Assembly: GCA_027604185.1 (NCBI GenBank)
Contig: JADGKB010000174.1
Span: 1 to 21,270 of the forward strand
Length of the DNA stretch: 21,270 bases
Direction of reading: 5' to 3'
DNA from: Boothiomyces macroporosus
Lineage: Eukaryota > Chytridiomycota > Chytridiomycetes > Rhizophydiales > Terramycetaceae
The translations under genes were made by a program, and so were the position numbers. A model generated the notes under the pieces. That model saw nothing but the letters and a program-made list of their open reading frames with translations, was not told the origin of the DNA and ran no database searches. Each line of letters begins with the position of its first letter. The stretch's first letter is position 1. Of this stretch, positions 5,015 to 18,137 are shown piece after piece.

Positions 5015-6271
5015 ATGTATGTAGCAGTGAGCTGGGATTGGCTCATAGTATTTATATCGTTCTGGGCTGCGGTGTTTGGTGCATTCACGTCAATTGAAGT
5101 TATTTGCCATTTGCTAAGAGTGCTAGTGGAACGAAAATTAGACAGAAAAGCAGAATCTAGCTCACAAATCGGAAAAAACAACACAGCACTGAAAAAATCT
5201 AGTGTCAGTTTGGCGGACAATCAAAAATCATTCCTTGACAAGATGACAGACGCCAAAATGACTTTTCTGAATATGTTAATTGCTGCAATAGCCCTAGGAG
5301 CGTGTGGTATATGGGGAATGCACTTTATAGGTATCCACTCGCTATCCTTTTTTGTGATTCCTGATAGCTTACTTGACCAAGAAGCAGCAATTTTGGCTCA
5401 AGGACTGTTGAATAATTCGTACTATGTACCACTGAATTTAAATGTTCTATACACAACATTATCCCTTTTCATTGGGGTTTTGTCAGTCTATTTCGGATTA
5501 CTTACTGCAGCTTGGGCATTTGGGTTGTTTAATCCCAATGTACAGAATATTTCCAACGAAATGCCAGACAGCGACAAGGACGAGCAAAAAACTCCTGTTA
5601 CTCCCGTTTCCCCAAATGAAGTAGATAAAAAGCTGTCACTCAATGCAGAGCTGGTGGATTCAGAAGAAATGCCCAAGTTAAACGAATCTCCATTACAATC
5701 AACCATGGAAAAGAAAAAGGTTGCAATGAGGAGCAATCTATCTATTCGAATTCCGAAAACAAAACAAACTGCTTTGAAAAGGTTAATGGTAAAAATGAAA
5801 ATGGAAATGGATGCTCGCAAATATCTACAAAAATACACTTTCTTTTCATTGTCTAAAAAGAATCAGGCTATATTTGTTCTTGGTGGAGTGTTGACCGGGT
5901 TTGGTGTCGCTGGAATGCACTATTGTGGAATGGCAGCAATGAGGATAGAAAACGTAAAAATGACCATGAATCCTATTCATCTAAGTTTATCTATAATAGT
6001 TGCGGCAGTAGTTGCGACAGTTGCGTTATGGATCCTGTTTTTCCTCCGTTCTAAACATGCTGTATTTGCTTCTTCTCTTGTCATGGGATTGGCGGTTTGT
6101 TCAATGCACTATTTAGCCACTGCAGGTATCATCTATGAATACGTACAGGGATACAATACAGAAAAAGTCCTATGGGAAATATCTGGCTTTGATAACGAAT
6201 TGGTATCTGCTCACCTTGCGTTTAGTATAGAGCTTGGGATACTAAATTATGTCCATAGGTTTTTGAAATAA
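5015..6271 (+). CDS. MHYT-domain integral membrane sensor protein
   Basis: A 418-aa polytopic membrane protein. MHYT domains are proposed to sense diatomic gases or redox state through metal held by conserved Met and His. Three motifs are visible: MHFIG at residue 102 (GIWGMHFIGIHSLSFF), MHYCG at 301 (GVAGMHYCGMAAMRIE) and MHYLA at 364 (CSMHYLATAGIIYEY). The N-terminal SWDWLIVFISFWAAVFGAF is the usual first helix, which supports this start. Unlike typical bacterial MHYT proteins there is no attached GGDEF, EAL or kinase domain. Instead long charged loops split the helices (about residues 38-82 and 178-285, rich in K, E and S). The C-terminus (HLAFSIELGILNYVHRFLK) is the normal last helix, so the protein looks complete. 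Function in fungi is unknown. No introns. Confidence 0.85.
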   Translation: MYVAVSWDWLIVFISFWAAVFGAFTSIEVICHLLRVLVERKLDRKAESSSQIGKNNTALKKSSVSLADNQKSFLDKMTDAKMTFLNMLIAAIALGACGIWGMHFIGIHSLSFFVIPDSLLDQEAAILAQGLLNNSYYVPLNLNVLYTTLSLFIGVLSVYFGLLTAAWAFGLFNPNVQNISNEMPDSDKDEQKTPVTPVSPNEVDKKLSLNAELVDSEEMPKLNESPLQSTMEKKKVAMRSNLSIRIPKTKQTALKRLMVKMKMEMDARKYLQKYTFFSLSKKNQAIFVLGGVLTGFGVAGMHYCGMAAMRIENVKMTMNPIHLSLSIIVAAVVATVALWILFFLRSKHAVFASSLVMGLAVCSMHYLATAGIIYEYVQGYNTEKVLWEISGFDNELVSAHLAFSIELGILNYVHRFLK

Positions 6272-6775
6272 CATTCTGGTTACTATTTTGATTATTTAGC
6301 TTCTTACTACTTCAAAATGTTGTGCCAATTATAACCACGCACTTCAGCTGATATTTCAGTAGCTAATTGGAAGCCAGTTGATTGTATAGTACATAAATTT
6401 AAAAGCAGTTGTAAACATGTTCGTCTGTATTCAATAAAAAAATACAATTTATATACAACTCCGTTTCACCATAATAGTGATTAGACATCGTGATCCATGC
6501 CATTCATTCTAGTTGGTTTATCAGCAGTCAGATCATTCTTCGCGTGTCATTTGTGTTTCATCTAGCCACAACTATCCCAGTAGTTACAACCATGGTGCAA
6601 TACTATAAAATTTGTGATAGTATTTGATAGCCAACCCATCAACGTCGTCCAATTCCTCCAGGATGCATGTAATTGATTAAACTTTGAAAATACGGATCAA
6701 AGTATCTGCATTTCAGCATATATCCTCAATTTGCAACACTTGTAGTCTGGAATTTTATAAGCCGTTGTTTATCAG
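6272..6775. other. AT-rich intergenic region left of the tandem duplication
   Basis: No gene, RNA or element is recognisable. An AATAAA-like run near 6434 could serve the MHYT gene. The region ends at the duplication boundary (TTTATCAG before ATCGGTAGCATG). Confidence 0.4.
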
Positions 6776-6889
6776 ATCGGTAGCATGATCATTTTCGTCG
6801 ACAGTGCTTCAGAAACAGAAATGCACAACCAGGCAGGTTGCGAAATAAAAACAAGTGGCAGAATTAGAGATATATTATCTACGTATTAA

Positions 6890-7962
6890 TCAGTCTCGGT
6901 AAGGAAAACCGCCAAACTTTGAACAAAGGTATTCGTATCCAGCAGAGTAGAAGGAATTTTCGTGAAACTCAATGTTTTGCAGCTTGACGTTGGTTTTTCT
7001 GTTCCAAACCTTTCCTTCCCAGCTTGAAAACTCTGGCATCCCGCCGTTAAAGTGCATGAACGCTGGCGTTGTGTTGGTTTTTACGTTCACATACTTGCCG
7101 CCAATATACTGCATATCGTCCAGAGAAATCCACATGCTTTTGAATATTTTTTCACGGTAGTCGAGCTTGCACCTCTCCCCCCACTTGATACACAGGTCGT
7201 ATGCTCGCGCTTGATCGTTTTCCGCGTGGTATTTTGGAGTGTTGGACATTGTTTCTTGAAACCACTGTGCGCAGTCCGACGCCCTGCACATCATTGCACC
7301 AGAATTGAGCCATTTCGGAGACGGATCAGGGGCATAGACTGCAATCATTTCTGGGTCGCCGGGGAAAAGGCTGCACATTGCATCGATGGATTCTTGGTCT
7401 TTGATGTACGGCCAGCAATTCTTTTCTGCGCTGTAAAGAACCTTCACGTCCATTTTAACAAATTCGTCCACAATGTAATCCACTGGCTGCTGCAAAAAGA
7501 CATCAAATGCATCGGCAAACACCAGGATTTGGTTTGGGTCCTTGCTTGCTTCTGCCTTCGCCATCTCAACAAACCTGTTTGGCTTTGCTTGCTTGGCTTC
7601 TTCTTCGCGAGGACCTGGGCCATACCCCCCAACTAGCAGTGGGATCTTTTCCACCAGGACTGATCGGGCCATCCTGCAAAACTTTTCCCGTTCATCAGAA
7701 GCATACACCACTACTTTTACTGAATCTTAGTCCAACTTACCTGGGGAACTGCCACTCCACTCTTTGAAGTTTTGATCGGGTCTGTTGTATGCACAGCTAT
7801 GTTGGTCACTGCTCGATTCTTGCAAACCAGGGCTGGATGAAAAATTTCGAACCACACTGGAGACGCAATAGACAATAAAGACCACTGCTGTGATTAAGAG
7901 TATTTGCGATTTATCAGAGTTAAATTGAGCTTACTGCGCGATTTGATTACTTTGATTGCCAT
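6890..7962 (-). CDS. PLOD/procollagen-type glycosyltransferase, type II membrane protein (copy A)
   Basis: Resembles the GT domain of procollagen-lysine glycosyltransferases, which use UDP-sugars in the ER/Golgi lumen. Joined exons 7962-7935, 7914-7741 and 7719-6890 give 343 aa. Basic start MAIKVIKSRN, signal anchor ILLITAVVFIVYCVSSVV, then KVVVYASDEREKF. DxxD metal site D137-D140 in ILVFADAFDVFLQ; SAEKNCWP at 164-171; WLNSGAMM near 204; END at 234-236; late HFNGG. These match the PLOD-GT order (FxDxYDV, FSAE-CWP, YLNSG). No lysyl-hydroxylase domain follows. Intron 2 (7740-7720) is 21 nt: GTAAGT donor, ACTAAG, TTCAG acceptor, in-frame TAA. Intron 1 is less certain: 20 nt ending TG (7934-7915) gives a full anchor; 47 nt ending CACAG (7934-7888) gives a 334-aa form with a short anchor. 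The acceptor sugar and protein are unknown. Confidence 0.8.
7720..7740 (-). other. 21-nt mini-intron in the PLOD-like gene (copy A)
   Basis: Minus strand: donor GTAAGT, internal GGACTAAGA, acceptor TTCAG, 21 nt in all. Removing it joins ...SGSSP to VKVVVYASDERE in frame (phase 1). Left in, a TAA interrupts the protein just before the conserved GT domain. Confidence 0.75.
7915..7934 (-). other. Possible 20-nt first intron of the PLOD-like gene (copy A), non-AG acceptor
   Basis: Minus strand: donor GTAAGC, TTTAAC, ending CTCTG. Removal restores MAIKVIKSRN-KSQILLITAVV in frame. The first exon is 28 nt and the intron 20 nt, exactly as in the neighbouring GT2-like gene. The terminal dinucleotide is TG, not AG. 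A 47-nt alternative ending CTTAATCACAG at 7888 is also in frame. Confidence 0.45.
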
Positions 7963-8143
7963 TTCAACAAACCATAACTGGTCGCGCTGCACTTTTAAAC
8001 AAACACGAGCCACACGAGCTATCTCCGACAAGCTGCAGCGCGCGGACATTGCTCATCTAGCCAGGCTATTCTTTGGGCTGAATATATATGCATCTGGCCG
8101 CGATATGCCTGCCAAGCAAGTGAATGCCACACAGAATAATGTT

Positions 8144-8149
8144 TTTATT
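8144..8149 (-). terminator. AATAAA overlapping the stop codon of the GT2-like gene (copy A)
   Basis: The minus strand reads GAC TAA TAA AAA; the second and third bases of the TAA stop (8150-8148) are the first two of AATAAA (8149-8144). Copy B has the same at 13265-13270. Confidence 0.45.
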
Positions 8150-9256
8150 AGTCTTGGTGTCCTGGGGAGCGTCCATTGGTCCCAATATGGACAAACATGG
8201 GTGGCAAGTCCACTCCCCGTTCGCTTTCGCTGCACCGATTTCTAAGCTTGATATCGCTGCTTTGGACCATACACAGGTGAGCGCACGCATATCCAGCCTT
8301 GTTAACCTTCATTTGAAACCATGTTTCTCCGTTTGTGTCGGACGGCGGTGGTTGGAACCGCCCAATTTGCTCAAGTCTCGCTCTGGATTTCAGCGAGGCT
8401 CCATTTGTGTACGATCCAGCACCCGACACGGTGTTGTCAGGATCTCCCTGTTGCCGATGATACATTACCTGCCCCTGATCAATATCGCGCTGGATGTTCT
8501 CCATCGAAGGTGTAAGCATCCATTGCGTTTCGTTTATTTTCTTGTACTCTTCGCTGTCGTATCGCAGCCAGACCTCTAAAACCTTTTCGTCGGTGTCTAT
8601 TACGTTCATCGCCATCTGTATCAGCGGCATATGGTCAAATCCAGGCCCGACTTCCCAATCCTCCTCCAGCGACAGAATGTACGGAGACCGGCACTGCTGA
8701 AAGATCAGCTGGTCGAACGCATAGGCAATGCCTACATTCACGCGGGAGAAAATGAACCGGTCGATCGGCAGCGTTTGTATATAATCTCGCAGCAAATCGC
8801 GCTCGCTGCCATTGTCCCACAGAATCATCTCGTAAGTGATATTTGGCTCGTTCGTGTGCATGTAGCTGACAAATGCCGAGACTGTCCGTTTAAGCAACAA
8901 AGGTCTTTTGCAAGACAGTAGAATCACACACATGTCTGGTGGAGAATCTCTGGCAAAATGCAGCGGTTTGTGCAGCTCAAAGAGATCGACTGCTGCTTTG
9001 TGATCATGCTGGGGCAGCTCTTCTTTGCCAGCTACTAGGATTGTATTCTGGGTTATTTCTGCCTGCTGGCCGGCACCCTGCTCTTGTGGAGCAGTGTCTG
9101 GAGTTACGGGAGCCAGATCGCCAATATTGACTGGTGACAGTTTGGTTGTACAGATTATTGCAACAGAGAGGAAAATAAGGACTACTCCAAAGACAGCGTG
9201 AAATTTCCCTGCGTTAGTGCTGATTTACGTCTGAACTTGATTGAACCCAGTGCCAT
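8148..9256 (-). CDS. GT-A/GT2-like glycosyltransferase, type II membrane protein (copy A)
   Basis: Exon 9256-9229 (28 nt), a 20-nt intron (9228-9209) and exon 9208-8148 give 362 aa. Start MALGSIKFRR, signal anchor FGVVLIFLSVAIICT (about residues 15-29), a Pro/Gln/Thr-rich stem (residues 30-98), then a Rossmann-like GT-A domain: MCVILLSCKRPLLLKRTV, WDNGSERDLL (DNGS at 141-144), VNVGIAYAFDQLI, and LSLEEDWEV with acidic EEDW at 191-194 in the DxD position. It ends FVHIGTNGRSPGH, like the C-termini of related eukaryotic nucleotide-sugar transferases. Type II topology places the enzyme in the Golgi/ER lumen. Without splicing, the frame stops at TAG before the anchor is complete, so the intron is needed for a membrane-targeted protein. 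AATAAA overlaps the TAA stop (8144-8149). Donor sugar unknown. It lies 185 bp upstream of the PLOD-like gene, same strand. Confidence 0.82.
9209..9228 (-). other. 20-nt mini-intron in the GT2-like gene (copy A)
   Basis: Minus-strand sequence GTAAATCAGCACTAACGCAG: donor GTAAAT, a canonical CTAAC branch-like motif at nt 12-16, and CGCAG acceptor. Removal turns a 24-codon stub into the continuous signal anchor KFHAVFGVVLIFLSVAIICT joined in frame to the catalytic domain. Confidence 0.8.
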
Positions 9257-9604
9257 TTTGGAAAGTTTAACGCGAAAAACAAACAATTAAATGCACATTT
9301 CTATTCGCATCACAATAGGACAGACTCTAAATCGCGATTAGACAGTGGTGCGCATCTATAGTATTGCCACAAATTCCAGAGCTGCCTGCCTGCTTATTGC
9401 GTTGGCTGTTTGAGACAAGTGTGCTTGATCGGAGCAAGACAGAGAACCAAAGGGGAATGGTCTATTTACCAACCGGCATTGCGATAGCGGCACTGCCAGT
9501 TTAACACATCTTCTGAAAAGCGCGTCCCAGCACCAAGAGGACTCAGTCAACACTTTGCACTGCCGTTGCTCAAGAAACCGTTCACACTAAGCAAATCCTC
9601 GGGA
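9257..9604. other. Region between the GT2-like gene and the orphan ORF (copy A)
   Basis: Upstream region of the GT2-like gene. It includes AAACAATTAAA (9281-9291, plus strand), a motif also found upstream of the GT-D gene near 10905. In a shifted frame just beyond the orphan ORF's stop, the minus strand could read DPEDLLSVNGFLSNGSAKC, a possible frameshifted continuation of that ORF. Confidence 0.35.
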
Positions 9605-9835
9605 TCAAGATAACTCTGAATTCATACACTTGGCATTCTGGCCGTGCTTTTGGGGGCGAACTTGCTTGATGGCTGCAAAACAGGAGTGGGTATTCTGATC
9701 GCCGACTATCCTTCGAATATTCTCAAGCTGGCTGCTCAGTCCAAGCTGGCTCCAAACTGTTTGGTACAGATCAACTGTAAGCATAGGCTGGAAGTCTGAC
9801 AACACTGGATTACCCAATGCTTGGCACTTGTAAAA
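9605..9835 (-). pseudogene. Orphan ORF between the GT-D and GT2-like genes, probable gene fragment (copy A)
   Basis: An open frame runs DFYKCQALGNPVLSDFQPML ... LYQTVWSQLGLSSQLENIRR ... CMNSELS and then stops. It has ordinary protein composition and GC content like the adjacent glycosyltransferases, but no ATG at its 5' end; the first Met is about 20 codons in. It begins about 25 nt past the GT-D stop codon. I could not connect it to the GT-D gene with a canonical intron in the right frame. No family recognised. Likely the 3' remnant of a lost gene, or a terminal exon whose partner I cannot see. Confidence 0.35.
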
Positions 9836-9860
9836 GTCGATTTGTCATTATTAAACTTTA

Positions 9861-10802
9861 CTAATAGAAATAACCCGGAAGCATGACAGCCTTGCCGTCA
9901 GCGTCAAGCTTGAATGCAGAGTCAAACTGGGTGCTGTAGAAATTACCGTCGTCCATGTATGGCCGTGTTTTTCTGCCTTTCAGCACCTCGTCAACGCTTG
10001 AACCAAAATCGATATACTTGTTTCTGTTGTTGAGACTCCACATGGTGTGAACCCCGATATTAGTCAATGGCCCGCAGGACATTATGAATAGCGTGTCTGT
10101 ATACTTCTTTGCGAGCCTTTCCCACTCTTTCTTGATTTCTTTGTGATGCGTTTCGTACCAGTCCAAACCGTTATCGGGACACTCCAGGTACTCCTGCAGC
10201 GTCACAAACGACTGGGCATTTGTTCTGCTCTCTTTGCTTGCGAAAATCACTACTGGCCCTGCCTCTCCGGCCTGGATCTTCTTCCACATGTTTCTGGTTC
10301 TTTTGTAGTTGGAGTTTACAAACACGTTCGAGTACGTGATATAGTCCAAATTCTGCTCAATATGAGACAGGAAGTAGTTCAGCGAGGGAACATTTTCATC
10401 TCCAGACAGTCCATAGTAGACCGGCTGGCCATAGTGTCCTTTCAAGGTACTGGCCAAATCAGTGGACAGCATTGACTGCTCTCCTCCCTTGTAAACCCAG
10501 CTGTCTTGCTGTGAGACCAATGGCCGTCGGTCAATAACAGCCTGTTCTCCGTCTGCAAATCTCATCATTGCAAAGTGGTGATCCTTATCCATAATCTGTT
10601 TGGCAAGCATCTACAATTAGAGCTTTTCTACCAGCCAGTCGTTGTCCATCGGTCCAGCGATTTTCCGTGGTTCATGGAGACATTCAGCGGAAGGCTTTTC
10701 AGCTTTCGCAGCAGACGCAGGTTGCTCGTCCCACAGAATATATGTTGCAATCAAAATTATCGGGAGCAGGACTAGCAATCTCGACTTTGTTGATATTTTC
10801 AT
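9861..10802 (-). CDS. GT-D-fold (DUF1792-like) glycosyltransferase, type II membrane protein (copy A)
   Basis: Exon 10802-10632 (57 codons), a 21-nt intron (10631-10611) and exon 10610-9861 give 306 aa. Start MKISTKSR, then signal anchor LLVLLPIILIATYILW and a short stem (PASAAKAEKPSAECLHEPRK). The catalytic domain carries FAMMRFADGEQAV (RFADGE at 74-79), matching the RFGDGE nucleotide-sugar motif of bacterial GT-D enzymes (DUF1792, as in streptococcal adhesin glycosylation). Further on are YGLSGDEN, VVIFASKESRTNA and LFIMSCGPLTNIG, a second Rossmann-like strand. GT-D enzymes of this type are best known as bacterial glucosyltransferases extending a protein-linked glycan; a eukaryotic version with a signal anchor suggests Golgi retargeting. 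If unspliced, the frame meets TAA and TAG within the intron. It is the 5'-most gene of the three-gene set. Donor and acceptor unknown. Confidence 0.8.
10611..10631 (-). other. 21-nt mini-intron in the GT-D gene (copy A)
   Basis: Minus strand: donor GTAGAAAAG, internal CTCTAATT, acceptor TTGTAG, 21 nt. It is phase 0 and frame-neutral, and its two in-frame stops (TAA, TAG) vanish on splicing, joining DNDWL to MLAKQIMDKDHHF. The donor is less canonical than in the other two genes, and an alternative start at the following ATG exists, but that would lose the signal anchor. Confidence 0.6.
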
Positions 10803-11896
10803 TGCGGCAGTGTGTGATTGAGATCAAAATTGTTATCTTATTTAGCCACACTTTCATTCCACCCTGCGCGTCAAACCGCCCTTTAATAAACAAACCCCTG
10901 CTGCAAACAATTAAAAAATCCCACCGTAAGACAAACCCAACAGTTGAGCCTGCGCTTTGGAATCTGTTCTGTTGACAGCAAATTATGCGCTTTCGAGGGG
11001 TCGCTGCAGAGCCGTGGAATATTGGTCAACGCAAGCTGCCCGTGTTCGCTATCCAACCGCCTTAACTTTAGACTGTACTGCAGAAGGCTGTGCTCGATCT
11101 AATGTTCAGGTATTGCCAGGATCGACTCTGAAATATTAATCTCATAATACGGGTTGTAATATTTATACCAACTAATTCTTTTATGCTTCGAATCAAGAAT
11201 GGCGATATCCCGCTATTTCTGGAACCTGGCAACCATCTTACTCACCAATTAAGCACCCCAGATTACATTGAATTTTTAAATACAGCAGCACACATTCTAA
11301 AGTAGAAATATCTTGCGATATTCTGGGTTAAGCGGCTTGTCAATGATTGACAAAATCTTTCAAAGTTCCTCTTCAATGCAGTTGAACTTATCGAAATTGC
11401 AATCGATTACCATTACGCTTGCTTTTTCATAACCATGAAAAGAACTCTACCTTCAGAGCAAGGTAATAATCCATTATCAGGCAGTATTCACGTATTTCAT
11501 CAAAATTTCAATAACTTCTGTTGAATTTCTTTCGGAATCTTGAAGAATGCCTGCAAACTGAAATTGATAATTTCTTTCCTTAATTCTTACAAATTAACAA
11601 TTTCCACTGATGTGGGGATGCTAGAGTCGAAGTTGGACCATCTTTTTTGATGGTTTCATAGCTTCATAGATATTTGGGCACTTCGTATGTTGAACACCAA
11701 ATTTTCACCTTTCATGTGAGTGGTTCCATCGATGTTTTAGATCTAGCTTTCTGCTTGCTTCGCTTGTGGAGTGTTCATCTAAGAAATAGGACATCAATAC
11801 TCGTCAAGATATTTTTTACATGCTAGATCAAAGCTCTGGCTTGCATTCTATTATTAGAATTGGAAGTAAAATGGCAAGATGGATGTTCCAGTGGTA
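10803..11896. other. Upstream region of the GT-D gene to the end of copy A
   Basis: The GC-rich part (to about 11139) holds the GT-D promoter, with a TATA-like TAAATAAG about 40-45 bp before the ATG and AAACAATTAAA near 10905-10915. A short GC-rich plus-strand frame lies at 10957-11139. From about 11140 to 11896 the DNA becomes AT-rich like the flanks, with no gene or element I can support. Confidence 0.4.
10957..11139 (+). pseudogene. Possible gene fragment upstream of the GT-D gene (copy A)
   Basis: A 60-codon frame (ESVLLTANYALSRGRCRAVE ... LTLDCTAEGCARSNVQVLPG) without an ATG start; a TGA lies just upstream. Composition is protein-like and GC-rich like the cassette genes, and GC falls right after it. 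Two regularly spaced Cys suggest a secreted-protein remnant, but no family is recognised. It could be chance. Copy B has the same at 16078-16260. Confidence 0.2.
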
Positions 11897-12010
11897 ATCG
11901 GTAGCATGATCATTTTCGTCGACAGTGCTTCAGAAACAGAAATGCACAACCAGGCAGGTTGCGAAATAAAAACAAGTGGCAGAATTAGAGATATATTATC
12001 TACGTATTAA

Positions 12011-13083
12011 TCAGTCTCGGTAAGGAAAACCGCCAAACTTTGAACAAAGGTATTCGTATCCAGCAGAGTAGAAGGAATTTTCGTGAAACTCAATGTTTTG
12101 CAGCTTGACGTTGGTTTTTCTGTTCCAAACCTTTCCTTCCCAGCTTGAAAACTCTGGCATCCCGCCGTTAAAGTGCATGAACGCTGGCGTTGTGTTGGTT
12201 TTTACGTTCACATACTTGCCGCCAATATACTGCATATCGTCCAGAGAAATCCACATGCTTTTGAATATTTTTTCACGGTAGTCGAGCTTGCACCTCTCCC
12301 CCCACTTGATACACAGGTCGTATGCTCGCGCTTGATCGTTTTCCGCGTGGTATTTTGGAGTGTTGGACATTGTTTCTTGAAACCACTGTGCGCAGTCCGA
12401 CGCCCTGCACATCATTGCACCAGAATTGAGCCATTTCGGAGACGGATCAGGGGCATAGACTGCAATCATTTCTGGGTCGCCGGGGAAAAGGCTGCACATT
12501 GCATCGATGGATTCTTGGTCTTTGATGTACGGCCAGCAATTCTTTTCTGCGCTGTAAAGAACCTTCACGTCCATTTTAACAAATTCGTCCACAATGTAAT
12601 CCACTGGCTGCTGCAAAAAGACATCAAATGCATCGGCAAACACCAGGATTTGGTTTGGGTCCTTGCTTGCTTCTGCCTTCGCCATCTCAACAAACCTGTT
12701 TGGCTTTGCTTGCTTGGCTTCTTCTTCGCGAGGACCTGGGCCATACCCCCCAACTAGCAGTGGGATCTTTTCCACCAGGACTGATCGGGCCATCCTGCAA
12801 AACTTTTCCCGTTCATCAGAAGCATACACCACTACTTTTACTGAATCTTAGTCCAACTTACCTGGGGAACTGCCACTCCACTCTTTGAAGTTTTGATCGG
12901 GTCTGTTGTATGCACAGCTATGTTGGTCACTGCTCGATTCTTGCAAACCAGGGCTGGATGAAAAATTTCGAACCACACTGGAGACGCAATAGACAATAAA
13001 GACCACTGCTGTGATTAAGAGTATTTGCGATTTATCAGAGTTAAATTGAGCTTACTGCGCGATTTGATTACTTTGATTGCCAT
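12011..13083 (-). CDS. PLOD/procollagen-type glycosyltransferase, type II membrane protein (copy B)
   Basis: Identical to the copy A gene at +5,121. Exons 13083-13056, 13035-12862 and 12840-12011; 21-nt intron at 12861-12841; uncertain first intron 13055-13036 (or to 13009 for the 47-nt alternative). Same DxxD, SAE-CWP and LNSG motifs and the same signal anchor. Its 3' flank is copy B's own 114 bp preceded by the end of copy A, so polyadenylation signals could be shared with copy A only up to the junction at 11897. With no sequence divergence the two genes would make the same protein and differ only in dosage. Confidence 0.8.
12841..12861 (-). other. 21-nt mini-intron in the PLOD-like gene (copy B)
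   Basis: Same GTAAGT ... ACTAAG ... TTCAG element as in copy A, at +5,121. Confidence 0.75.
13036..13055 (-). other. Possible 20-nt first intron of the PLOD-like gene (copy B), non-AG acceptor
   Basis: Same element as in copy A: GTAAGC donor, terminal TG. Because both copies carry it, a random read error at the acceptor is less likely if the copies are real, but not excluded if one copy is an assembly duplicate. Confidence 0.45.
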
Positions 13084-13268
13084 TTCAACAAACCATAACT
13101 GGTCGCGCTGCACTTTTAAACAAACACGAGCCACACGAGCTATCTCCGACAAGCTGCAGCGCGCGGACATTGCTCATCTAGCCAGGCTATTCTTTGGGCT
13201 GAATATATATGCATCTGGCCGCGATATGCCTGCCAAGCAAGTGAATGCCACACAGAATAATGTTTTTA

Positions 13269-14377
13269 TTAGTCTTGGTGTCCTGGGGAGCGTCCATTGG
13301 TCCCAATATGGACAAACATGGGTGGCAAGTCCACTCCCCGTTCGCTTTCGCTGCACCGATTTCTAAGCTTGATATCGCTGCTTTGGACCATACACAGGTG
13401 AGCGCACGCATATCCAGCCTTGTTAACCTTCATTTGAAACCATGTTTCTCCGTTTGTGTCGGACGGCGGTGGTTGGAACCGCCCAATTTGCTCAAGTCTC
13501 GCTCTGGATTTCAGCGAGGCTCCATTTGTGTACGATCCAGCACCCGACACGGTGTTGTCAGGATCTCCCTGTTGCCGATGATACATTACCTGCCCCTGAT
13601 CAATATCGCGCTGGATGTTCTCCATCGAAGGTGTAAGCATCCATTGCGTTTCGTTTATTTTCTTGTACTCTTCGCTGTCGTATCGCAGCCAGACCTCTAA
13701 AACCTTTTCGTCGGTGTCTATTACGTTCATCGCCATCTGTATCAGCGGCATATGGTCAAATCCAGGCCCGACTTCCCAATCCTCCTCCAGCGACAGAATG
13801 TACGGAGACCGGCACTGCTGAAAGATCAGCTGGTCGAACGCATAGGCAATGCCTACATTCACGCGGGAGAAAATGAACCGGTCGATCGGCAGCGTTTGTA
13901 TATAATCTCGCAGCAAATCGCGCTCGCTGCCATTGTCCCACAGAATCATCTCGTAAGTGATATTTGGCTCGTTCGTGTGCATGTAGCTGACAAATGCCGA
14001 GACTGTCCGTTTAAGCAACAAAGGTCTTTTGCAAGACAGTAGAATCACACACATGTCTGGTGGAGAATCTCTGGCAAAATGCAGCGGTTTGTGCAGCTCA
14101 AAGAGATCGACTGCTGCTTTGTGATCATGCTGGGGCAGCTCTTCTTTGCCAGCTACTAGGATTGTATTCTGGGTTATTTCTGCCTGCTGGCCGGCACCCT
14201 GCTCTTGTGGAGCAGTGTCTGGAGTTACGGGAGCCAGATCGCCAATATTGACTGGTGACAGTTTGGTTGTACAGATTATTGCAACAGAGAGGAAAATAAG
14301 GACTACTCCAAAGACAGCGTGAAATTTCCCTGCGTTAGTGCTGATTTACGTCTGAACTTGATTGAACCCAGTGCCAT
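13269..14377 (-). CDS. GT-A/GT2-like glycosyltransferase, type II membrane protein (copy B)
   Basis: Identical to the copy A gene at +5,121: exon 14377-14350, 20-nt intron 14349-14330, exon 14329-13269; 362 aa with a signal anchor, Pro/Gln-rich stem, DNGS and EEDW motifs and the HIGTNGRSPGH end. AATAAA overlaps the stop codon (13265-13270). No divergence from copy A seen. Confidence 0.82.
14330..14349 (-). other. 20-nt mini-intron in the GT2-like gene (copy B)
   Basis: GTAAATCAGCACTAACGCAG, identical to copy A. Confidence 0.8.
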
Positions 14378-14725
14378 TTTGGAAAGTTTAACGCGAAAAA
14401 CAAACAATTAAATGCACATTTCTATTCGCATCACAATAGGACAGACTCTAAATCGCGATTAGACAGTGGTGCGCATCTATAGTATTGCCACAAATTCCAG
14501 AGCTGCCTGCCTGCTTATTGCGTTGGCTGTTTGAGACAAGTGTGCTTGATCGGAGCAAGACAGAGAACCAAAGGGGAATGGTCTATTTACCAACCGGCAT
14601 TGCGATAGCGGCACTGCCAGTTTAACACATCTTCTGAAAAGCGCGTCCCAGCACCAAGAGGACTCAGTCAACACTTTGCACTGCCGTTGCTCAAGAAACC
14701 GTTCACACTAAGCAAATCCTCGGGA
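14378..14725. other. Region between the GT2-like gene and the orphan ORF (copy B)
   Basis: Same as copy A: an AAACAATTAAA motif near 14402, otherwise no supported gene. Confidence 0.35.
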
Positions 14726-14956
14726 TCAAGATAACTCTGAATTCATACACTTGGCATTCTGGCCGTGCTTTTGGGGGCGAACTTGCTTGATGGCTGCAAA
14801 ACAGGAGTGGGTATTCTGATCGCCGACTATCCTTCGAATATTCTCAAGCTGGCTGCTCAGTCCAAGCTGGCTCCAAACTGTTTGGTACAGATCAACTGTA
14901 AGCATAGGCTGGAAGTCTGACAACACTGGATTACCCAATGCTTGGCACTTGTAAAA
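14726..14956 (-). pseudogene. Orphan ORF, probable gene fragment (copy B)
   Basis: Identical to the copy A orphan frame at +5,121: no initiating ATG at its 5' end, no recognised family, located just past the GT-D stop codon. Confidence 0.35.
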
Positions 14957-14981
14957 GTCGATTTGTCATTATTAAACTTTA

Positions 14982-15923
14982 CTAATAGAAATAACCCGGA
15001 AGCATGACAGCCTTGCCGTCAGCGTCAAGCTTGAATGCAGAGTCAAACTGGGTGCTGTAGAAATTACCGTCGTCCATGTATGGCCGTGTTTTTCTGCCTT
15101 TCAGCACCTCGTCAACGCTTGAACCAAAATCGATATACTTGTTTCTGTTGTTGAGACTCCACATGGTGTGAACCCCGATATTAGTCAATGGCCCGCAGGA
15201 CATTATGAATAGCGTGTCTGTATACTTCTTTGCGAGCCTTTCCCACTCTTTCTTGATTTCTTTGTGATGCGTTTCGTACCAGTCCAAACCGTTATCGGGA
15301 CACTCCAGGTACTCCTGCAGCGTCACAAACGACTGGGCATTTGTTCTGCTCTCTTTGCTTGCGAAAATCACTACTGGCCCTGCCTCTCCGGCCTGGATCT
15401 TCTTCCACATGTTTCTGGTTCTTTTGTAGTTGGAGTTTACAAACACGTTCGAGTACGTGATATAGTCCAAATTCTGCTCAATATGAGACAGGAAGTAGTT
15501 CAGCGAGGGAACATTTTCATCTCCAGACAGTCCATAGTAGACCGGCTGGCCATAGTGTCCTTTCAAGGTACTGGCCAAATCAGTGGACAGCATTGACTGC
15601 TCTCCTCCCTTGTAAACCCAGCTGTCTTGCTGTGAGACCAATGGCCGTCGGTCAATAACAGCCTGTTCTCCGTCTGCAAATCTCATCATTGCAAAGTGGT
15701 GATCCTTATCCATAATCTGTTTGGCAAGCATCTACAATTAGAGCTTTTCTACCAGCCAGTCGTTGTCCATCGGTCCAGCGATTTTCCGTGGTTCATGGAG
15801 ACATTCAGCGGAAGGCTTTTCAGCTTTCGCAGCAGACGCAGGTTGCTCGTCCCACAGAATATATGTTGCAATCAAAATTATCGGGAGCAGGACTAGCAAT
15901 CTCGACTTTGTTGATATTTTCAT
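14982..15923 (-). CDS. GT-D-fold (DUF1792-like) glycosyltransferase, type II membrane protein (copy B)
   Basis: Identical to the copy A gene at +5,121: exon 15923-15753, 21-nt intron 15752-15732, exon 15731-14982; 306 aa with an N-terminal anchor and RFADGE. Its upstream region is copy B's own AT-rich end followed by the hAT relic, whereas the copy A gene faces the start of copy B, so distal promoter context differs between the copies beyond about 1.1 kb. Confidence 0.8.
15732..15752 (-). other. 21-nt mini-intron in the GT-D gene (copy B)
   Basis: Same GTAGAA ... CTCTAATT ... TTGTAG element as in copy A. Confidence 0.6.
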
Positions 15924-17017
15924 TGCGGCAGTGTGTGATTGAGATCAAAATTGTTATCTTATTTAGCCACACTTTCATTCCACCCTGCGCGTCAAACCGC
16001 CCTTTAATAAACAAACCCCTGCTGCAAACAATTAAAAAATCCCACCGTAAGACAAACCCAACAGTTGAGCCTGCGCTTTGGAATCTGTTCTGTTGACAGC
16101 AAATTATGCGCTTTCGAGGGGTCGCTGCAGAGCCGTGGAATATTGGTCAACGCAAGCTGCCCGTGTTCGCTATCCAACCGCCTTAACTTTAGACTGTACT
16201 GCAGAAGGCTGTGCTCGATCTAATGTTCAGGTATTGCCAGGATCGACTCTGAAATATTAATCTCATAATACGGGTTGTAATATTTATACCAACTAATTCT
16301 TTTATGCTTCGAATCAAGAATGGCGATATCCCGCTATTTCTGGAACCTGGCAACCATCTTACTCACCAATTAAGCACCCCAGATTACATTGAATTTTTAA
16401 ATACAGCAGCACACATTCTAAAGTAGAAATATCTTGCGATATTCTGGGTTAAGCGGCTTGTCAATGATTGACAAAATCTTTCAAAGTTCCTCTTCAATGC
16501 AGTTGAACTTATCGAAATTGCAATCGATTACCATTACGCTTGCTTTTTCATAACCATGAAAAGAACTCTACCTTCAGAGCAAGGTAATAATCCATTATCA
16601 GGCAGTATTCACGTATTTCATCAAAATTTCAATAACTTCTGTTGAATTTCTTTCGGAATCTTGAAGAATGCCTGCAAACTGAAATTGATAATTTCTTTCC
16701 TTAATTCTTACAAATTAACAATTTCCACTGATGTGGGGATGCTAGAGTCGAAGTTGGACCATCTTTTTTGATGGTTTCATAGCTTCATAGATATTTGGGC
16801 ACTTCGTATGTTGAACACCAAATTTTCACCTTTCATGTGAGTGGTTCCATCGATGTTTTAGATCTAGCTTTCTGCTTGCTTCGCTTGTGGAGTGTTCATC
16901 TAAGAAATAGGACATCAATACTCGTCAAGATATTTTTTACATGCTAGATCAAAGCTCTGGCTTGCATTCTATTATTAGAATTGGAAGTAAAATGGCAAGA
17001 TGGATGTTCCAGTGGTA
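15924..17017. other. Upstream region of the GT-D gene to the end of copy B
   Basis: Same contents as 10803-11896: a GC-rich proximal part with a possible plus-strand gene fragment (16078-16260), then AT-rich DNA with nothing recognisable up to the duplication boundary. Confidence 0.4.
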
Positions 17018-17032
17018 CTATTTCGAACCAAG

Positions 17033-18137
17033 CAGGGTCTGCAATAAATTATTGATTGGTCAATAATTGCAATATTTATTAACCAGTAATTGGTTGGTGC
17101 GGTATACCAATATCAATTATTGAGTGGATCCTACTTTCAATTATCCATTCCAAATTCCAATAAAATTCCTACCAATTAGTCTTGGAAATCATTTTTTGAA
17201 AGAAAAAGTTTTCTAAATGCACATTAATCAAGATGTTTGTACTTCAAGAAATCAATGAAAGATGATTATTGGGATTGCAAATTTTGTAGTGTTGATGGAC
17301 AGTGTTCGAAATCTTTAAAAAAAAGAAAGGAACAGGTTGGTCTAATCTATTTCACCGTATTCAGACTTGCACCAGGACTACCGGAATATTCTTAAGGATA
17401 AAGTTGATCCAATGTATATTGTACCTGCGAAAGTAAAAAGCATTTATTCCTGGATGGAGTTGATTGTCGTAAAGAACTGGCCTGTATCTACTGTTGATGA
17501 TGATCTCATCCGGAAGGCAATTTCCTATGACTCTATCTCTTCCAACACATTGAAAAGTACATGAACCTGTTGAGTTATTTGATGCATTAGTATCAAAGTA
17601 TCCTGAAACTGAGACTTATCTTGCTACTGGTGCACGCATTGTACACTCTCCTGATTTTGAATCAGGTGTGTGTAAAATATTACAAGGAAACGAAGATTTG
17701 AACGCGGATGAAGCTGCAGCACTCTGCTTGTTTGAATCTCCGCCGGTTGATAGTGGGGATGAAAGGGAAATTTCATTTGTTGATCAAGTTTTGAAAAAGG
17801 AACGGATAATGAAGTACCAAGATCTGTCTTTCATTCCACCAACATCAAATCATGTGGAAAGATTTTTTAGTGCATCTAAATTGGTGATGACTGACTTACG
17901 GAAAAGTACACTTCCTACAAACTTGGAAAAAATAATGTTTTTAAAGTGCAATCGAGAATGGTGGGATGTCAAACTTCTAGCTTCAGTTCTTAATGAACAA
18001 AACAATCAATAAAAGCATTGGAATCCAATAATTGATTGGATTGATTTTCCAATGTCAATTAATCATTGAACGTAAGCTTCAATACCAATTATAGATTGAC
18101 TGCTACCAGTGTCACTGCATATATTATTGCAGGCCTG
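17033..18137 (+). mobile_element. hAT-family DNA transposon relic, internally deleted
   Basis: The left end reads CAGGGTCTGCAATAA (17033-17047). The right end, read on the opposite strand from 18137, is CAGGCCTGCAATAA. These are imperfect terminal inverted repeats with the CAGG start typical of hAT elements. AATTGATTGG/CAATAATTG-type repeats crowd both subterminal regions (17047-17120 and 18025-18100), as expected for transposase binding sites. The interior encodes the two ends of a BED/hAT transposase. The flanking 8-mers (GAACCAAG and TCAGAGGA) do not match, so there is no visible target-site duplication; the element is old or rearranged. Confidence 0.75.
17255..18012 (+). pseudogene. hAT transposase pseudogene (BED finger and C-terminal dimerisation domain)
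   Basis: From the ATG at 17255 the frame gives DDYWDCKFCSVDGQCSK, the first Cys pair of a BED zinc finger. After a run of eight A's the reading frame slips: GTGWSNLFHRIQTC and then HQDYRNILKDKVDPMY lie in other frames. A segment with NWPVSTVDDDLIRKAIS, typical of hAT N-terminal regions, follows to a stop at 17564. From about 17563 another frame (HEPVELFDALVSKYPETETY) opens and runs to 18012, carrying the hAT dimerisation signature SNHVERFFSASKLV ... FLKCNREWWD. The RNase H-like catalytic core is missing entirely, so it cannot encode active transposase. Frameshifts and a large internal deletion mark it as dead or, at most, a non-autonomous element. Confidence 0.8.

Follow-up and report, generated by a model that had tools for sequence, protein, structure and literature searches.

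Probable spliceosomal introns of about 20 nucleotides in glycosyltransferase and housekeeping genes of the chytrid Boothiomyces macroporosus

The nucleomorph of the chlorarachniophyte Bigelowiella natans has kept many introns with GT-AG ends, as has the genome described here. In the available text of PMC10245619, published intron lengths are given as 18-21 nucleotides (nt) for the nucleomorph, 16-17 nt for mikrocytids, and 15-16 nt for heterotrichs. The present work concerns the window, a stretch of 21,270 nt (positions 1 to 21,270 of contig JADGKB010000174.1, assembly GCA_027604185.1) from the chytrid fungus Boothiomyces macroporosus, in which three neighbouring glycosyltransferase genes, denoted A, B, and C, are each interrupted by 20 or 21 nt. 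Very probably, these three segments are spliceosomal introns of the U2 type with GT-AG ends, reduced to about 20 nt in a chytrid where most introns appear to be that short. Introns of about 20 nt are the norm of this genome and no peculiarity of the three glycosyltransferase genes.

Each of the described systems resembles the chytrid in part. The length range in the Bigelowiella natans nucleomorph (18-21 nt) is nearly equal (PMC10245619, available text). However, the nucleomorph is the relict nucleus of an endosymbiont, whereas the introns considered here lie in the main nuclear genome of a fungus, have clear CTAAY-like branch motifs, and include some near 44 nt and longer. Stentor coeruleus is likewise free-living and has spliceosomal introns with a fixed branch position, at nt 10-11 there and nt 14-15 here, but its introns are shorter (15-16 nt) and, in the accessible portion of the report, are described as lacking a strong branch consensus (PMC9505925). 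Mikrocytos mackini, with introns of 16-17 nt, shares the narrow length range and the conserved motifs; unlike the chytrid, it is a reduced parasite with 224 introns and, as far as the same text describes, a reduced spliceosome (PMC10245619), while here a rough 11,000-13,000 introns are estimated and both a U2AF2-like gene and a Cwc25 gene are kept. Trichomonas combines a short and a longer length class in one genome, and its shortest intron, of 23 nt, was counted in 2025 among the shortest known (PMC12316389, in part). It is an intron-poor protist, whereas the introns here are numerous and mostly below 23 nt.

The GT-AG ends and the yeast-like CTAAC branch motif are those of fungal introns generally, but in length the introns here fall far under the usual fungal range and near the shortest on record in any organism. 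A survey of 644 fungal genomes terms a mean of 63 nt relatively short, and the table seen in that source includes two chytrids only, for ancestral reconstruction (PMC8476143). In the available parts of two chytrid genome papers, introns are mentioned just in passing. No report of fungal introns near 20 nt was found in the titles and abstracts of the papers listed by searches of the open-licence literature, a scope that most subscription papers fall outside. The segments would thus be a known kind of intron at its extreme, in a kingdom with no such report among those papers. Their presence in a fungus would mean that introns this short are not bound to relict nuclei, giant ciliates, or reduced parasites. 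Close relatives are available in culture collections, which makes the limit of the spliceosome testable at the bench.

On the minus strand, the segments read GTAAGTTGGACTAAGATTCAG in gene A (7720..7740, 21 nt, GTAAGT..CTAAG..CAG), GTAAATCAGCACTAACGCAG in gene B (9209..9228, 20 nt, GTAAAT..CTAAC..CAG), and GTAGAAAAGCTCTAATTGTAG in gene C (10611..10631, 21 nt, GTAGAA..CTAAT..TAG), with CTAA at nt 11-14, 12-15, and 12-15, respectively. The initial annotation had placed GT..CTAA..AG segments at these positions, and the coordinates, lengths, and motif are confirmed on the minus strand. Its claim that retention contains or unmasks an in-frame stop also holds for each gene: segment A carries an in-frame TAA, segment B shifts the frame to a stop at codon 25, and segment C carries two stops. 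Excision of all three restores the frames, and the spliced genes, with a further putative intron of gene A also removed, each have one stop, the terminal one. At the gene C junction, two relatives run contiguously across. Taken alone, segment A is the weakest of the three, owing to its CTAAG branch motif and to a 21-nt junction covered by none of the relatives found. It is the genome-wide tests that place the three segments beyond chance.

Housekeeping genes provide a measure of intron length that requires no splice motif. In the assembly of 15.2 Mb and 216 contigs, the gap between neighbouring six-frame Pfam exon matches, corrected for profile position, was taken as the estimate for the CCT and kinesin families; PF00133 yielded few junctions and was kept out. 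There were 54 adjacent exon pairs, eight of which had a profile gap of more than 13 positions and were left out (34, 43, 80, -130, 38, 40, 56, and 19 nt). Of the 46 scored junctions, 39 are estimated at 17-24 nt and the rest at 13, 41, 41, 44, 60, 66, and 114 nt; with copies in repeated stretches removed, the count is 36 of 42. In-frame introns of 18 or 21 nt are partly hidden from this estimate, as the match then stays unsplit. For 16 of the 17 CCT pairs (the omitted pair was estimated at 34 nt), GT..AG solutions were sought that keep both frames open and lie no more than 7 nt from the estimate. There is one such solution in 14 junctions and two in the other 2, and the best measure 23, 19, 40, 20, 22, 19, 20, 20, 44, 19, 22, 20, 20, 20, 111, and 20 nt. 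Thirteen of the 16 are therefore of 19-23 nt, YTRAY is present in 14, and 15 begin with GTA.

The CCT3 gene illustrates the pattern. Its five introns measure 20, 20, 21, 44, and 19 nt, and those of 20, 20, 44, and 19 nt are visible as breaks. The 21-nt intron (CCT3 locus 1164-1184) is in frame and free of stops, and is recognised by seven extra residues that relatives lack; if kept, it would add these seven residues and give no quality-control signal. Without the five introns, CCT3 aligns with bovine and human CCT3 over residues 5-528, the sole gap being one residue away from the junctions. The spliced protein of 546 amino acids (aa) equals in length the annotated CCT3 of Terramyces sp. JEL0728, with 96% identity. 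Since the Terramyces proteins are annotated correctly at these junctions, their gene models may already hold such introns, or the genes may lack them. Relatives of CCT3 are contiguous at the junctions except for a Kappamyces entry, which starts late and is missing ten middle residues; this may be a gene-model error.

Where the shortest intron allowed by gene finders or read aligners is 20-40 nt, proteins of genomes of this kind would be cut or misjoined. An example is the 260-aa database protein of gene A on this contig, which starts past the intron. Both this protein and the Kappamyces CCT3 are apparently cut or misjoined.

The pattern GTAAGTN{0,30}CTAACN{1,6}AG has 112 matches in the genome. 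Among the first 100, which were listed, 85 are of 18-23 nt, one of 24-35 nt, and 14 of 36-46 nt, against uniform spacing expectations of 19%, 39%, and 34%. With a GTAATT donor, 72 of the 100 matches listed out of 277 are of 18-23 nt, 11 of 24-35 nt, and 16 of 36-49 nt, with one of 16 nt. In the first 200 kilobases (kb) of the largest contig seen, the looser pattern GTA..YTRAY..NAG occurs 65, 85, and 51 times at 19, 20, and 21 nt, compared with about 12 times per length at 25-35 nt. The excess at 18-22 nt is 172 per 200 kb. Scaled from this single stretch to 15.2 Mb, it suggests roughly 11,000-13,000 such introns genome-wide.

The ends of the segments are specific as well. In C1:1-200000, GTA..NAG segments were collected, with no branch motif required, if they connect frames that stay open for 50 codons or more and if their retention disrupts the frame. 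These peak at 19-22 nt (29, 63, 26, and 20 segments), with 28.2 per length at 18-22 nt vs 7.7 at 25-35 nt, a 3.7-fold difference. Seven decoy pairs of donor and acceptor give 3.8-8.4 at 18-22 nt vs 3.9-9.8 at 25-35 nt, no comparable excess, so that the excess belongs to GTA..NAG alone. YTRAY, although not required, is found in 91 of 141 segments of 18-22 nt vs 7 of 85 segments of 25-35 nt. At a threshold of 80 codons, the values are 13.0 vs 2.2 per length, and YTRAY is present in 44 of 65 vs 0 of 24.

These results bear on the possibility that the genes are pseudogenes, or that the interruptions are assembly or sequencing indels, which is very improbable. It could draw on the disruption of the frame, or the added stop, that each segment causes, and on the several repeated stretches of the assembly, which are possible artefacts. 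Random indels, however, would have no peak at 19-22 nt confined to a GTA start and an AG end. The segments have GT..YTRAY..AG in common at fixed spacing and sit in conserved CCT, kinesin, Isy1, and Cwc25 genes, and their exact removal gives back conserved proteins: CCT3 as compared with mammalian CCT3, gene C as compared with its two relatives, and the Isy1 and Cwc25 frames.

The branch motif lies at a nearly fixed position. By yeast convention, the second A of CTAAC is the branch A. Of the 157 listed GTAAGT and GTAATT rows of 18-23 nt, 148 were used to describe intron anatomy; those left out had overlapping ends, were further copies of repeats, or, in the case of two GTAATT rows, had CTAAC far from the end. 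The putative branch A falls at nt 14-15 in 127 of the 148, and its distance to the last G is 4-6 nt in 138 of the 148. In the window, it would lie at nt 14 and 7 nt from the 3' end in segment A, at nt 15 and 5 nt in segment B, and at nt 15 and 6 nt in segment C. The initial annotation's view that these introns are near the physical minimum, with the branch motif at an almost fixed distance, is thus supported by the length, branch-position, and decoy tests.

Genes for components of the splicing machinery are present in the genome. Two U2 small nuclear RNA (snRNA) genes, matched at 142 and 135 bits, carry GTGTAGTATCTG with the branch-binding GTAGTA intact. A U2AF2-like gene is matched over its three-RRM region at 231 bits plus a 31-bit piece, under the whole-protein cut-off because the gene is split by introns; one of its breaks coincides with GTAATTCTAACTAACCAAG, of 19 nt. 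The predicted Cwc25 begins MGGGDLNLKKSWHP, with its N-terminal glycine plug intact, and its gene itself has a 21-nt intron, while the Isy1 gene has introns of 20, 19, and 46 nt. Stentor, whose introns measure 15-16 nt, lacks the Cwc25 plug and shows no conservation of the Isy1 N-terminus, according to the part of the report available; its authors propose that both changes avoid a clash with the tight lariat (PMC9505925). The intact plug in this chytrid argues that plug loss is unnecessary at 19-21 nt.

Removal by DNA elimination, by ribosomal bypass, or by a non-spliceosomal RNA enzyme would be a further way to restore the frames, and is just as hard to credit. In its favour, a length of about 20 nt is under the usual spliceosome limit, and the case made here is drawn from DNA sequence. 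Segments eliminated in ciliates are bounded by TA and cut from the DNA; those described here are bounded by GT and AG and are present in the assembled genome. The GT-AG ends, the U2-complementary branch motif at a fixed distance, and the U2 snRNA with GTAGTA all point to the spliceosome instead, and spliceosomal splicing of 15-21 nt introns is reported elsewhere, in the passages available (PMC9505925, PMC10245619).

Several observations weigh against spliceosomal introns as the explanation. Excision by splicing is a deduction from sequence only. The junctions of genes A and B are without homologue support, no homologue search across the gene B junction having been made. The reversed-pattern controls give 295 matches vs 112 for GTAAGT, 277 vs 23 for GTAAGT over 47-79 nt, and 190 vs 277 for GTAATT; with the control in excess in two of three cases, pattern totals alone prove nothing, and the argument lies in the length distribution. 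Reversed sequence also has a small rise at 18-22 nt in the GTA..YTRAY..NAG count, with 84 in the five lengths vs 13.9 per length. Finally, an earlier test, which bridged open reading frames from GTRNGT donors under a weak codon model, found no excess over decoys, unlike the later one based on GTA donors and open-frame length. With hindsight, we think that the earlier test was underpowered, since GTRNGT is not the form of most donors in this genome.

If the segments are spliceosomal introns, the course of their removal may be sketched as follows. The GTA-rich 5' end would be recognised by U1 and U6, and base-pairing of U2 with the CTAAY-like motif at nt 11-16 would place the branch A at nt 14-15. 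The 3' splice site would be the first AG, 4-6 nt past the branch A. Because there is no room for a polypyrimidine tract, recognition would probably proceed through the tight geometry of 5' site and branch, a form of intron definition. Alongside the class of about 20 nt there are longer introns, fewer in number and in part clustered near 44 nt.

A more specific proposal, offered tentatively and judged somewhat short of an even chance, is that a largely complete canonical spliceosome, with the Cwc25 plug and the U2AF2-like gene kept, removes thousands of introns of about 20 nt by measuring a nearly fixed step of 14-15 nt from 5' site to branch. Few introns would fall at about 24-35 nt, and those of a second group near 44 nt would have the strong GTAAGT donor and, in many cases, CAG directly before the branch motif. 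If true, ultra-short introns do not need the loss of the branching-factor plug, and discrete workable geometries set intron length.

The dominant length class is narrow, with a mode of 19-20 nt, and the longer introns form a minority that is less sharply defined. Those in the homology set measure 40, 44, 46, and 111 nt. Ten of the 100 GTAAGT matches listed out of 112 cluster at 43-46 nt, where the single match at 24-35 nt marks that interval as rare. No long cluster accompanies GTAATT donors, whose counts at 24-35 and 36-49 nt are close to chance spacing among the 100 of 277 listed. A further 23 GTAAGT matches extend over 47-79 nt, so that the longer introns are spread and do not form one sharp class. 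Among the 13 distinct GTAAGT segments of 36-46 nt, seven have CAG directly before the branch motif. A search for this CAG pattern gave 25 matches vs 7 in the reversed control: 11 rows (10 places) of 41-47 nt, 9 of 20-22 nt, and 5 of 25 or 34 nt. The association of CAG with long introns was noticed before it was tested and is only suggestive. Hairpins were considered as a general reason for the introns near 44 nt and were rejected, the mean z against mononucleotide shuffles being -0.27 for the 13 GTAAGT introns of 36-46 nt. It is -0.01 for 20 longer introns and 0.22 for 20 GTAATT segments, and two or three single introns fold well.

Least probable is that only the three glycosyltransferase genes are unusual and were transferred from a tiny-intron lineage such as a ciliate or a nucleomorph: their block (7001-11000) has a G+C of 46-50% vs 38.6% in C1:1-200000, and genes A and C have few database relatives, but the same introns occur in housekeeping genes of the same genome, the motif-free estimates contradict a special origin, and the closest matches of the gene C protein belong to Terramyces sp. 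JEL0728 (91% identity) and to Boothiomyces. The NCBI taxonomy places Terramyces sp. JEL0728 in Chytridiomycota, Rhizophydiales, Terramycetaceae. The initial annotation had credited the spliceosome of the host or of a source lineage; the host is upheld by introns of the same type in CCT subunits, kinesins, Isy1, Cwc25, and U2AF2, and a special source lineage is unneeded.

The three genes, all on the minus strand, would encode spliced proteins of 334 aa (A), 362 aa (B), and 306 aa (C). In gene A, there is no ATG upstream of the 21-nt segment after the last stop of that frame. Frame analysis points to a putative second intron at 7888..7934, of 47 nt (50 nt with a neighbouring AG) and covered by no homologue, which would join the ATG at 7962 to the 334-aa frame. 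Exon 1 would then span 7935..7962, exon 2 (7741..7887) would hold a hydrophobic anchor, judged by eye, and a stem, and exon 3 (6890..7719, stop included) would hold the GT_PLOD domain (PF25342), whose match starts at residue 59, the first residue past the junction. Gene B has a first exon of just 28 nt of coding sequence (9229..9256, ATG at 9256) and a second (8148..9208, stop included) with the anchor and a glycosyltransferase-like domain, for which Pfam gives only a weak GNT-I match under the cut-off. In gene C, exon 1 (10632..10802, ATG at 10802) holds a hydrophobic anchor and exon 2 (9861..10610, stop included) the RFADGE-containing domain; no significant match was found in Pfam. The earlier proposal that removal fuses an anchor to a domain is therefore correct as to the restored frames, but gene A needs the extra 47-nt intron, and the gene B anchor lies wholly in exon 2.

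All three genes are held in a 5121-base-pair (bp) unit that is repeated exactly in tandem (6776..11896 = 11897-17017), which may reflect duplication in the very recent past or else an artefact of assembly. The second, identical copies of the introns lie at 12841..12861 (A), 14330..14349 (B), and 15732..15752 (C), again on the minus strand. Because the repeat is exact, they are no independent evidence. Many near or exact repeats occur elsewhere in the assembly, as at C36:59323-60387 and C36:101507-102571 and at C123:2513-4353 and 5990-7833, and further repeated stretches involve C71 and C195, C49 and C100, and C175:2832 and 12979. Uncollapsed haplotypes, loops in the assembly, or genuine segmental duplications could account for these. 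A search of a phage collection gave no match. Beside the repeat, 17554-18012 holds a hAT transposase fragment (Dimer_Tnp_hAT, a weak match just under the cut-off). On the other side, 5015-6268 encodes a membrane protein with three stretches of MHYT, a domain described for bacterial signalling proteins.

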